A stretch of 64,000 bases of DNA from Prochlorococcus sp. AG-363-B05 (GTDB lineage: Bacteria; Cyanobacteriota; Cyanobacteriia; PCC-6307; Cyanobiaceae): contig QCFD01000002.1 of assembly GCA_003278445.1 (NCBI GenBank), positions 62,001-126,000 of the forward strand, in the 5' to 3' direction. This document shows, piece after piece, positions 9,973-14,459 of this stretch (the first letter of the stretch is position 1; the number at the start of each line of letters is the position of its first letter). A program made the position numbers and the translations under genes. Below the pieces are notes generated by a model that searched no databases, was not told the DNA's origin, and saw only the letters and a program-made list of their open reading frames with translations.

Positions 9973-12135
9973 TTAACTAAGTTTACCAAAATCAGCAATA
10001 ACTAAAGATTGATTTCTAAGTATAGTCAATAGATTTAGCCTGTTATTTCTTAGATTAATATCATCTGTCATAACCATTACACTATCTTCTCCATCAAAGA
10101 ATCGTGATAAAACTTCCGCACTTAAAAATAGTTCATCAGCCAACAATTTATATTTAAGACGATCGCCACTTATAGATAAAGGCTTTAATTTCTCCAGGAC
10201 ATTAAACATTTGAATTTCACAATCCTTCTCAAATAGAGATTTATCAATAACAAGTAAAGGATCTATTACATCCTTGGAAATAGAACTTTTAGCTGCCAAC
10301 TTAGAGGCTCGAGTTACCACAGCTTGCAACAAATTAAGTGTATTATTTTTCCTCATATCCATTAATAATGAAGCACGAAAATCAAAGTCTGTTGGATCAT
10401 CTAATAATCTTGATGTTGAAGTTGTATCTCCTGCAATTGCCTGAATAATATCAAAATCGATATTTTTCTCTTCTAATAAACTAACAATTCTTTGACGAAA
10501 GAATTCTCTTAACTCACGAGAAAGGCAACTTATATCAAAAGATAGCGAAGGGAAGAGTTGCTTCCAATGAATAAGTGAATCATTGATTATTTCATTGATA
10601 TTTAACTGCCAAGTTTTATTCCACAAAATTAAAAGTATTCCATTGGCAGCCCTTCTCAATGCATATGGATCAGATGATCCAGAAGGTCTTTCACCCTTTA
10701 CAAAAATGCTAAGAATCAGCTCAAAGCGTTCAGCTAATGAAACCGCATTGCCAAGATTATTTGATGGAAGAGAGTCTGAAGTTCCTTTAGGCTTATAATG
10801 TTCTAAAACACCAAGACATACATCTCTTGATTCACCCTCATTAAGTAAGTATTTAGATCCCATAATTCCCTGCAACTCTGGAAATTCGTCAACCATGTTG
10901 CTAACCAAATCATGTTTAGAAAAATAAGCAACTTTCAAAGATTTTTCAATGTCACTCTGATCAAATTTAAGTTTTGTTGTTAGCAAGCTAGTAAGCCATT
11001 TTATACGATTCACACGATCATATAAAGAACCTAATCCTTCAGCAAAAGTAACTTTTTTCAGTTTATTAATACGTGAGGAGCTATTTACTAATAAATCCGA
11101 CTTTATAAAAAATGAAGCATCAGAAAATCTTGCCTTTAAAACTTTTTCATTTCCTAAAATAATATTTTCTTTAGCTGAAAATAATCCATTACTAATACAC
11201 AAGAAACTAGGAAATAAAATATTTCTAGAATCAAGTGATAATGGATCAAACTCAACATTTAATTTATATAAAGGTATGTACCTTTGATGAACCTTCATCA
11301 CTGTAGACAAAACCTCAGGGGGTAAATCGAGGAATGATTCATCAAAACTCCCAGTCAAAAGCAAAGGAGACTCAACCAAATCTGTCAGCTCATTTAAAAG
11401 GGTTTCAGTCAAATCTGGCTTAACTTTTTTATTTATTTCGTGATTAAGAACTAAATCATTAATACATGAAAGGCGCCTGCTCCTATCAACTATTACTCCA
11501 ACATCCTGCAATTGATCAAAATAAGTTTTTGCATTATTTATTTGAAATGTTGATCCATACAATCTATGTGGTCTTGATATATTACCTATTTGAATTACAG
11601 GATCGCAACCAGAAATTTTAAAAGGTAAAACTTCTGAATCAAACAACGAAACAATCCAACGAATAGGTCTCGAAAAGCGAAAATCGCCTTTTCCCCATCT
11701 CATAAACCTTCTTCCTTGAATTTTGCTTATCCATACAGGTAAATAATCAGCAAGCAAACTTGCAACTGGCTTTCCTTTCTCAATTAATTTAGCAAAAACA
11801 AATAAACCCTTTGGTGTTTCTCGAATCTCTAATTTTTCAGGAGAAAGGTCATATCTTCTAGCAAAACCAATTGCTGCGTTTGTAGGCTTACCATCATGAA
11901 AAGCTTGAGAAACGGGTGGTCCTTTCCGTTCTGCAATATTATCTTCAGAAAAAAGAGAAAGACCTTCAATCGTTAATGCAATTCTTCTAGGGGTAGTAGT
12001 AACTCTTATTTCACTAAATTTTATTTGAGAAGAATTCAAATCATTATTTACATTTAACTCAAGCTGAGAAATAACAGATTCAGCCAACTCAGCTGGTAGC
12101 TCCTCAGTGCCAATTTCTAAAAGATAAGTAGACAA
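9973..12135 (-). CDS. glyS: Glycyl-tRNA synthetase beta subunit
   Basis: 'YLLEIGTEELPAE', 'RFMRWG', 'ERPSGSSDPYALRRAANGIL'. Confidence 0.95.
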   Translation of the reverse strand: MSTYLLEIGTEELPAELAESVISQLELNVNNDLNSSQIKFSEIRVTTTPRRIALTIEGLSLFSEDNIAERKGPPVSQAFHDGKPTNAAIGFARRYDLSPEKLEIRETPKGLFVFAKLIEKGKPVASLLADYLPVWISKIQGRRFMRWGKGDFRFSRPIRWIVSLFDSEVLPFKISGCDPVIQIGNISRPHRLYGSTFQINNAKTYFDQLQDVGVIVDRSRRLSCINDLVLNHEINKKVKPDLTETLLNELTDLVESPLLLTGSFDESFLDLPPEVLSTVMKVHQRYIPLYKLNVEFDPLSLDSRNILFPSFLCISNGLFSAKENIILGNEKVLKARFSDASFFIKSDLLVNSSSRINKLKKVTFAEGLGSLYDRVNRIKWLTSLLTTKLKFDQSDIEKSLKVAYFSKHDLVSNMVDEFPELQGIMGSKYLLNEGESRDVCLGVLEHYKPKGTSDSLPSNNLGNAVSLAERFELILSIFVKGERPSGSSDPYALRRAANGILLILWNKTWQLNINEIINDSLIHWKQLFPSLSFDISCLSRELREFFRQRIVSLLEEKNIDFDIIQAIAGDTTSTSRLLDDPTDFDFRASLLMDMRKNNTLNLLQAVVTRASKLAAKSSISKDVIDPLLVIDKSLFEKDCEIQMFNVLEKLKPLSISGDRLKYKLLADELFLSAEVLSRFFDGEDSVMVMTDDINLRNNRLNLLTILRNQSLVIADFGKLS

Positions 12136-12281: not shown

Positions 12282-14459
12282 ATGATACAGTGTAGGTACC
12301 GGTGTAGGTACCATTTGTCCAGTATTATACAAATACCAGGAAGGTCAGGTTTTTACCTTAGAGTTGCCGTTCCAAGAGGTAAATTAAGGGATGCTTTTGG
12401 TACATGTGATGTCGTTAAAAAAATAGGTAACACTATAGAAGAAGCTGAAGAGAACATAAGTGCAGCAGAGATTGCTATTCAACAAAAATTCGATGAAAAG
12501 ATAAGAGAAGAAGAGACAAATAAAATCAATAAATCCTTGCAAAAAGGATTTAGAGTCGAAGAAATTAAAAATACAAGTTTAAAAGAATCACCAAAAAACA
12601 TAGAAAAAGATTTAAAAGATGCCGGGTTTAGTAATGCAGCAATTGAAGCTCTGATGAATTTCGAAGAAAAAGAAAGCATATATAAAGCAGAAACAGAAAA
12701 GACTGTATCTTCACCTTGTATAGCTAATAATTCACCTCGAGCTAAATTTGAACAATTTAAAGCCGATAGCAATTACTTAAATGAACCCCTACAAAGTGAA
12801 TTAAAGAATGAAAGTGACCACTTTACAAACGACGCAGTTCAACTTCTGAAATTTCATGGTAGTTATCAACAAGATGACCGTGAACATAGGAAAAAAGGCG
12901 GAACAGGCAAAGACTGGCAAATGATGTTGAGACTTAGGAATCCAGCCGGTTTCGTTCCAGGTCCACTGTTCATAGCATTAGATGATCTCTCTGATCGATT
13001 AGGGAATCAAACCCTTAGAGCAACCACTCGTCAATGCTTTCAAATGCATGGAATAAAGAAAAAGAATCTAAAAGAAGTTATAGGAACAATTGTTAAATCA
13101 ATGGGATCAACATTAGCAGCATGTGGAGACATCAATAGGAATGTTATGGCTCCAGCAGCTCCATACGAGCAAGGTTCTTATCCAGCAGCTAGAAAATTAG
13201 CAACCGATATCGCAGATGTTTTATCACCCAAAAAAGCAGAAATAACTTACCTAGATTTATGGGTTAACGGTGAACTCAGATATGCAATTAAACCATCTCC
13301 TGAAGTCAAGAAAAACAGAAAGAAACAGCTAAATCCAGGTGTTTTTAGCGGGGATAACAAAGAGCCCTTATATGGTTCGACCTATTTACCAAGAAAATTC
13401 AAATGTGCAACTACAGTCCCTGGAGACAATTCTGTTGATATTCTCACTCATGACATAGGATTGGTGACGTTTACTAACAAGAAAGGAGTAATTGAAGGTT
13501 GCAATGTCTATGTCGGAGGAGGGATGGGTAGAACTCATAACTTAGATACTACGTTTGCTAGGATCGCAGATCCCATTGGTTTTGTAGACGGAAAAGATGT
13601 ATTAGAACTTGTACAATCTATTCTTGCTCTTCAAAGGGATTACGGTGACAGAAAAACAAGAAGACACTCAAGGCTTAAATATGTTTTACATGATATGGGT
13701 ATTGATTGGTTCAAGAAACAGTTAACAAGTAAATATTTTACAAAAAAAATCGAACCCCTAAGGTACGAAGGGGACACAATAATTGAAGATTACTTGGGCT
13801 GGCATAAACAATCTAAGAAACTATGGTTTGTTGGGCTACCACTACTATCAGGTAGGCTTACGGGAAAAGTAAAGAAACAACTTAGAATTATAGTTGAAAA
13901 ATATGGATTGGATGTACGTTTAACTCCAAACCAAGATCTCTTATTATGTAATATTGGTAATTATCAAAAAACAAGTGTCAACAATTCTCTAATTAATATA
14001 GGTTTTTCAAACCCAAGTAGTCCCGAACCACTAGCCAGGCATGCCATGGCATGCCCAGCTCTTCCATTATGTGGACTTGCGATGACAGAAGCAGAAAGAT
14101 TTTTGCCAGAACTTTTAAATCGTATAAAAAGTCAATTAAAAAGGCTAGAGATTAACAAATCAATTTTGATCAGAGTTACAGGATGTCCAAATGGATGTGC
14201 ACGTCCATATATGGCAGAGCTAGCTCTGGTTGGTAGTGGTTTAGACCAATACCAACTATGGCTTGGTGGCAGCACTAATTTAAAAAGATTAGCAAAGCCA
14301 TATCTACAAAAAATGCCTCTCAATGAATTAGAAAAGACATTAGAGCCTTTATTCATTAGCTGGAAAAACACTGGTAAATTATCAAGTCTTGGAGATCACG
14401 TTACGAAGCTTGGAGATGAAAATGTAATGTCCTTACTGACTTCAAATGCGACTCCATAA
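12282..14459 (+). CDS. sir: Ferredoxin-type sulfite reductase with atypical ~145-aa N-terminal extension
   Basis: From about residue 150: 'KFEQFKADSNYLNEPL...LLKFHGSYQQDDREHR'; siroheme/4Fe-4S cysteines 'ACPALPLCGLA' and 'TGCPNGCARP'. The N-terminus is not typical of the family. Confidence 0.92.
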   Translation: MIQCRYRCRYHLSSIIQIPGRSGFYLRVAVPRGKLRDAFGTCDVVKKIGNTIEEAEENISAAEIAIQQKFDEKIREEETNKINKSLQKGFRVEEIKNTSLKESPKNIEKDLKDAGFSNAAIEALMNFEEKESIYKAETEKTVSSPCIANNSPRAKFEQFKADSNYLNEPLQSELKNESDHFTNDAVQLLKFHGSYQQDDREHRKKGGTGKDWQMMLRLRNPAGFVPGPLFIALDDLSDRLGNQTLRATTRQCFQMHGIKKKNLKEVIGTIVKSMGSTLAACGDINRNVMAPAAPYEQGSYPAARKLATDIADVLSPKKAEITYLDLWVNGELRYAIKPSPEVKKNRKKQLNPGVFSGDNKEPLYGSTYLPRKFKCATTVPGDNSVDILTHDIGLVTFTNKKGVIEGCNVYVGGGMGRTHNLDTTFARIADPIGFVDGKDVLELVQSILALQRDYGDRKTRRHSRLKYVLHDMGIDWFKKQLTSKYFTKKIEPLRYEGDTIIEDYLGWHKQSKKLWFVGLPLLSGRLTGKVKKQLRIIVEKYGLDVRLTPNQDLLLCNIGNYQKTSVNNSLINIGFSNPSSPEPLARHAMACPALPLCGLAMTEAERFLPELLNRIKSQLKRLEINKSILIRVTGCPNGCARPYMAELALVGSGLDQYQLWLGGSTNLKRLAKPYLQKMPLNELEKTLEPLFISWKNTGKLSSLGDHVTKLGDENVMSLLTSNATP
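12287..12311. repeat. Direct tandem 12-bp duplication GTGTAGGTACC(G/A) inside the start of the sir ORF
   Basis: 'gtgtaggtaccg' followed directly by 'gtgtaggtacca', encoding CRYR-CRYH. Confidence 0.8.

Follow-up and report, generated by a model that had tools for sequence, protein, structure and literature searches.

The sulfite reductase gene (sir) of Prochlorococcus sp. AG-363-B05, located at 12315-14459 on the plus strand of the 64,000-nucleotide stretch of contig QCFD01000002.1 analysed here (the window), encodes about 143 additional N-terminal residues before the KFEQFK motif of the enzyme. The first ~65 of these residues are homologous to the N-termini of ~440-residue tyrosine recombinases found in the same family of cyanobacteria, and two tandem repeats resembling recombinase arm-type sites stand directly in front of the start codon. 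We propose, with a probability of roughly 55%, that the 5' end of a recombinase gene was captured by sir, and that Sir would bind its own repeats and repress its own transcription. The homology, the single origin, the clade-wide conservation, the selection on both domain and repeats, and the combination of repeats and domain in the recombinases are directly supported, while we infer binding and repression from sequence comparison.

Architecture and start codon of the fused Sir

The sir gene is oriented divergently to glyS (9973-12135, minus strand), and the features of the locus are compiled in Table 1. The whole fused protein scores above the curated TIGR02042 cut-off of 731.5 bits and departs from the usual sulfite reductase layout by the 143 residues that precede KFEQFK. 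No comparable N-terminal extension was present in the unfused Sir proteins examined from other genera, which have short N-termini ending in SPCIAN..KFEQFK, a stretch that is retained in the fused proteins. The initial annotation had described a long extension before the enzyme start within the open reading frame 12282-14459 (725 amino acids, with KFEQFK at residue 155), which is present as described, and had taken the ATG at 12282 as its beginning, which does not stand. Although invariant in the genus, this ATG does not share the reading frame of the enzyme in 24 of 29 genomes, and in one (L029) the frame that it opens ends with a stop at the third codon; it is therefore probably not the real start of Sir. 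Frame conservation favours the TTG at 12315 (GTG in two genomes), which directly follows the second repeat and agrees with the frame of the enzyme in each of the 29 genus genomes and in Prochlorococcus AG-404-P15 (G082). It always precedes GRSG by seven codons when the distance is measured from the P of PGRSG. Translation from this codon results in a protein of 714 amino acids in 27 of the 29 genus genomes. Neither the TTG start nor the tandem repeats had been noticed in the initial annotation. Its statement that no ATG, GTG or TTG occurs in frame between the Met codon at 12654 and KFEQFK holds in the window; this Met, codon 114 counted from the TTG, is no conserved internal start, since it is missing in five relatives (L005, L013, L029, L030 and L042).

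Table 1. Features of the sir locus, in coordinates of the window.
Feature	Position	Strand	Remarks
Candidate extended -10 promoter element TGATACAGT (TGn-TAnnnT)	12283..12291	+	conserved block
Direct repeat 1, TGTAGGTACC (candidate operator half resembling a recombinase arm-type site)	12291..12300	+	
Direct repeat 2, TGTAGGTACC	12303..12312	+	period 12
TTG start codon of fused Sir	12315..12317	+	GTG in two relatives; in frame and at fixed distance from GRSG in 29 genus genomes and G082
Recombinase-type N-terminal domain (arm-binding-like, DUF6538-related), residues 1-72	12315..12530	+	hhalign, AlphaFold, omega
Linker, residues 73-143	12531..12743	+	pair of short helices around KNIEKDLKDAGFSNAAIEALM (about 12591-12656); native Sir N-terminus SPCIANNSPRA
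Ferredoxin-dependent sulfite reductase body	12744..14459	+	TIGR02042, 733.7 bits; NIR_SIR and NIR_SIR_ferr in Pfam

Relationship of the extension to tyrosine recombinases

The link to the recombinases was obtained through intermediate sequences and profile comparison. In a profile-profile alignment with hhalign, the extension matched the recombinase N-termini with a probability of 99.5 and an E-value of 1.1e-22 over 64 columns, and the best single-sequence match had an E-value of 1.5e-11; by these measures the resemblance exceeds chance. Scans of the extension itself against Pfam, PHROGs and NCBIfam matched no recombinase family; in Pfam, the search suggested in the initial annotation, DUF6538 had no match to the extension. 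Of the homologous recombinases, all sampled from one family of genomes, four were scanned; PF00589 passed the Pfam cut-off in three of them, SAM-like domains were mostly present as well, and PF20172 (DUF6538) matched below threshold, with an E-value of about 1e-3, also in three. The relation of the extension to DUF6538 is thus an indirect one, reached through these recombinases at scores below threshold. Of the earlier claim of a DUF6538-type recombinase domain joined in frame to Sir, the recombinase-type piece and the junction are supported by the profile comparison, and the family label applies in this indirect sense. The catalytic domain PF00589 is absent from the fused Sir according to Pfam. 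Searching 398 genomes of the family with a profile of the N-domain retrieved only reading frames of recombinase length, shorter fragments and the Sir fusions, and a comparison of the recombinase N-terminus with phage records found nothing.

AlphaFold confidently predicts a beta-beta-alpha-beta-alpha arrangement with a long last helix for the N-domain (mean pLDDT 88) and two helices in the linker (residues 93-102 and 107-114). A Foldseek comparison of the N-domain model with the PDB and viral models gave no significant match and no solved arm-binding domain, and a PDB sequence search did not find such a domain either. The helical pair of the linker is weakly similar to recombinase L135 (shuffle p 0.004-0.025), which is only suggestive of homology.

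Distribution, origin and selection pressure

The extension was found in 30 of 41 genomes of the genus, which covers all genus genomes with an assembled sir, and in 17 of the 17 genomes that are at least 90% complete. It also occurs in one sister lineage assigned to another genus, AG-404-P15. The comparison of Sir N-termini among relatives, which the initial annotation had recommended, confines the extension to these two among the genera sampled, the others being devoid of it. The other genus records named are Prochlorococcus single-cell genomes, and the genus carrying the fusion may correspond to the low-light I clade. A tree based on the Sir body unites the fused proteins in one clade (support 99/97) that is sister to an unfused lineage, and a single origin of the fusion would be the simplest reading.

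Mean omega values were 0.067 (residues 8-70), 0.13 (extension as a whole) and 0.081 (Sir body), and among the closest pairs they came to 0.089, 0.17 and 0.089, respectively. Since the N-domain is thus constrained about as strongly as the enzyme, the extension is very likely translated and useful, with a looser linker. Two possibilities had been offered in the initial annotation, a scar left by an integrase gene and a functional fusion at a former integration site. That the extension is a tolerated integrase remnant without function is extremely unlikely: the C-terminal end of the linker does evolve faster, with an omega of 0.22-0.44 over the last 20 codons, but the N-domain values equal those of the enzyme, the repeats are near-invariant, and every near-complete genus genome has the extension. 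Clade-wide presence, one origin and purifying selection on the codons do not fit a scar and agree with a functional fusion. A former integration site finds no support at the locus, since no second repeat array was found in the fused genomes, no attachment-like core was seen at sir, and the glyS-sir neighbourhood is unchanged in AG-404-P15.

Conserved repeats in the sir leader

Directly before the TTG, the leader reads TGTAGGTACC-GG-TGTAGGTACC, i.e., two 10-bp repeats with a period of 12 bp. When up to three mismatches were allowed, this tandem pair occurred once per genome in 30 of the 41 genus genomes and always before sir, and the pattern read backwards, used as a control, gave a single match across all 41 genomes combined. 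No further tandem sites that would form a regulon beyond sir were found in the genus at the same threshold. The pairwise difference per site is 0.007 in each 10-mer, as opposed to 0.277 in the 2-nt spacer and 0.271 in the 60 nt upstream. In AG-404-P15, both copies read TGTTGGTACC and have the same A-to-T change in each.

A single conserved site bears on the question of whether Sir sits on DNA generally via its new domain, as a bacterial counterpart of the chloroplast sulfite reductase DCP68. In plastids, this enzyme compacts the DNA to which it binds and reduces transcription (PMC4154389), and the fused Sir is likewise a ferredoxin-dependent sulfite reductase with a putative role at DNA. General binding is nevertheless very unlikely in the present case, as one specific conserved site per genome points to site-specific binding and, unlike DCP68, the fused Sir implies a recombinase-type domain with a specific single-copy site. 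We know of no plant Sir that carries a recombinase domain.

The nine nucleotides upstream of repeat 1 differ by only 0.015 per site, compared with 0.271 for the 60 nt further upstream. We regard TGATACAGT in this block as a candidate -10-like promoter element; a consensus scan of the sir leader called no sigma-70 promoter. The leader motif CGCTACGGT (up to one mismatch) is present in 16 of 27 unfused sir genes and absent from all 30 fused loci, which is consistent with a replacement of the old sir control region. In the unfused sir genes of other genera (L076-L101), an upstream motif TTTCGCTACGGTG is located at a mostly fixed distance, in many cases 112 nt before KFEQFK.

In an alternative reading, the domain would have been kept for a task at the protein level, such as oligomerisation, stability, or docking to ferredoxin or a different partner, and the repeats would belong to a captured recombinase promoter or leader on which sir depends. 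The purifying selection on the N-domain acts at the protein level, the block immediately before the repeats varies almost as little as they do, and the loss of CGCTACGGT in all fused loci means that sir needs a new promoter. We consider this possible but rather unlikely, as neither a promoter nor a leader would call for two identical 10-mers around a freely varying 2-nt spacer, or for the identical change in both copies of AG-404-P15.

Control by RNA or by a leader peptide was also considered. The GGTACC of the repeats is self-complementary, and pairing of the two GGUACC copies gives a predicted 6-bp stem (-10.7 kcal/mol) beside the start codon; alternatively, a cysteine-bearing peptide starting with MIQCRYRCRYHC.. 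could sense cysteine, and 29 genus genomes show no variation at the ATG at 12282 or at either TGT codon. A peptide starting at this ATG was rejected as the cause of repeat conservation. Because there are no synonymous changes within the repeats and the peptide frame is not kept, the constraint, as read from the substitution pattern, acts on the DNA (or RNA) and not on a peptide. In particular, the peptide would be cut short by a stop at codon 3 in L029, the reading frame following the repeats is not constant, and AG-404-P15 does not have the ATG. The hairpin, for its part, is not general among the recombinase repeats, and the flank of copy 1 outside the stem is equally conserved, so that this type of control is quite unlikely overall.

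Repeat arrays of the related recombinases

Tandem repeats of ~10 bp with a period of 12-13 are also located just before the start of related recombinase genes, namely in 9 of 14 loci in each of two tested sets (p about 0.01 or less), some of these loci being close relatives and hence not all independent. About a third of the related recombinases had no significant repeat within the interval tested. The repeat sequence varies among the recombinases, with three copies of TGTGGGTACC in G191, two copies of TGGTAGGACC in G006, G181 and G389, and two copies of TTTGGTTCTGCAG in G181, and it mostly differs from that of the sir repeats. An intact element of ~7 kb in G006 contains two copies of TGGTAGGACC at its int end (C1:130251) and a four-copy array in the same orientation at its other end (C1:123166). 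Two recombinase loci of G181 share an attachment-like core, past which each has an array of four copies of the repeat that belongs to the other: in L043 (C26) and L147 (C20), a TTGGTAGGACC array stands beside a TTTGGTTCTGCAG-type int and vice versa, with the same core in between. This pattern reads as tandemly integrated elements, and we infer that the recombinase repeats are cognate arm-type sites at the ends of (adjacent) elements.

Further observations were made around these genes. A conserved stretch similar to GTGCCGTGCGAGCCCCAGTGATCGACCTG lies ~80-150 bp before most recombinase starts (e.g., L137, L142 and L147) and may be an attachment core; no Rfam family matched it, and the recombinase flanks gave a single 6S RNA match in Rfam. 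The stretch G061:C2, 87000-94000 (L106) contains a 6S RNA match together with a 111-residue recombinase remnant and a single TGGTAGGACC repeat. At L150 (G092:C1:547231), a four-copy array of the TGGTAGGACC type is located by an attachment-like core, similar to the element ends of G006 and G181.

Proposed capture of domain and operator

The course of events that we propose begins before this Prochlorococcus genus and the AG-404-P15 lineage diverged, when, in their common ancestor, the 5' end of a tyrosine recombinase gene would have become fused in frame with sir. This captured fragment would have comprised the tandem arm-type sites, the start codon and the N-terminal arm-binding domain, and would have displaced the old leader and start of sir, so that the descendants would make a Sir of ~714 residues from the TTG behind the repeats. 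The N-domain would have kept its cognate site, with autoregulation as its most likely use. Sir, or a Sir oligomer, would bind both TGTAGGTACC repeats, which are situated between the -10-like TGATACAGT and the start codon; the promoter would thereby be blocked and sir transcription repressed at high enzyme levels. Binding to arm-type sites is a function of integrase N-domains (PMC2951348); the putative DNA-binding role of the Sir N-domain is derived from its homology to a recombinase domain that is itself a putative DNA binder.

The closest parallel is intS of KplE1, which is repressed by its own product and in which an arm site overlaps the -10 box (PMC2951348). Both proteins have an N-terminal domain for arm-type sites (putative in Sir), and both genes have such sites, or in sir arm-type-like tandem repeats immediately upstream, at their own promoter near the start codon. 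Unlike IntS, the fused Sir has a metabolic enzyme in place of the SAM-like and catalytic recombinase domains, the locus has no attachment core, and autoregulation, demonstrated for intS, is proposed for sir.

Among enzymes, PutA and NadR have a DNA-binding domain with which they repress their own gene. The fused Sir resembles them in that an enzyme with a putative DNA-binding domain would govern its own promoter, but differs in that the domain is of the recombinase type and appears to have come with its candidate binding site. The domain and repeats may stem from tycheposon-type tyrosine recombinases of picocyanobacteria, which we take to be a possible source family. The G006 element, with its ~7 kb and its occurrence in Prochlorococcus, may belong to this class; unlike such recombinases, the fused Sir has no recombinase catalytic domain. 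The term tycheposon appears in PMC10872708. In a literature search limited to open-access sources, no report of a recombinase-Sir fusion was found.

We see about an even chance that a core metabolic enzyme acquired control over its own transcription in a single step, when an arm-binding domain and the arm sites it recognises were captured together from a mobile element, the two being kept as a unit throughout the clade and replacing the ancestral leader. If true, this would be a clean bacterial case in which a DNA-binding domain and its operator were domesticated together from a mobile element onto a core enzyme, and in which a new regulatory circuit arose from a single event. The arrangement also supports a concrete reading of a poorly described recombinase N-domain, in which the repeats before the recombinase start would be its cognate arm sites. 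For Prochlorococcus, the fusion offers a testable handle on the control of sulfur assimilation.
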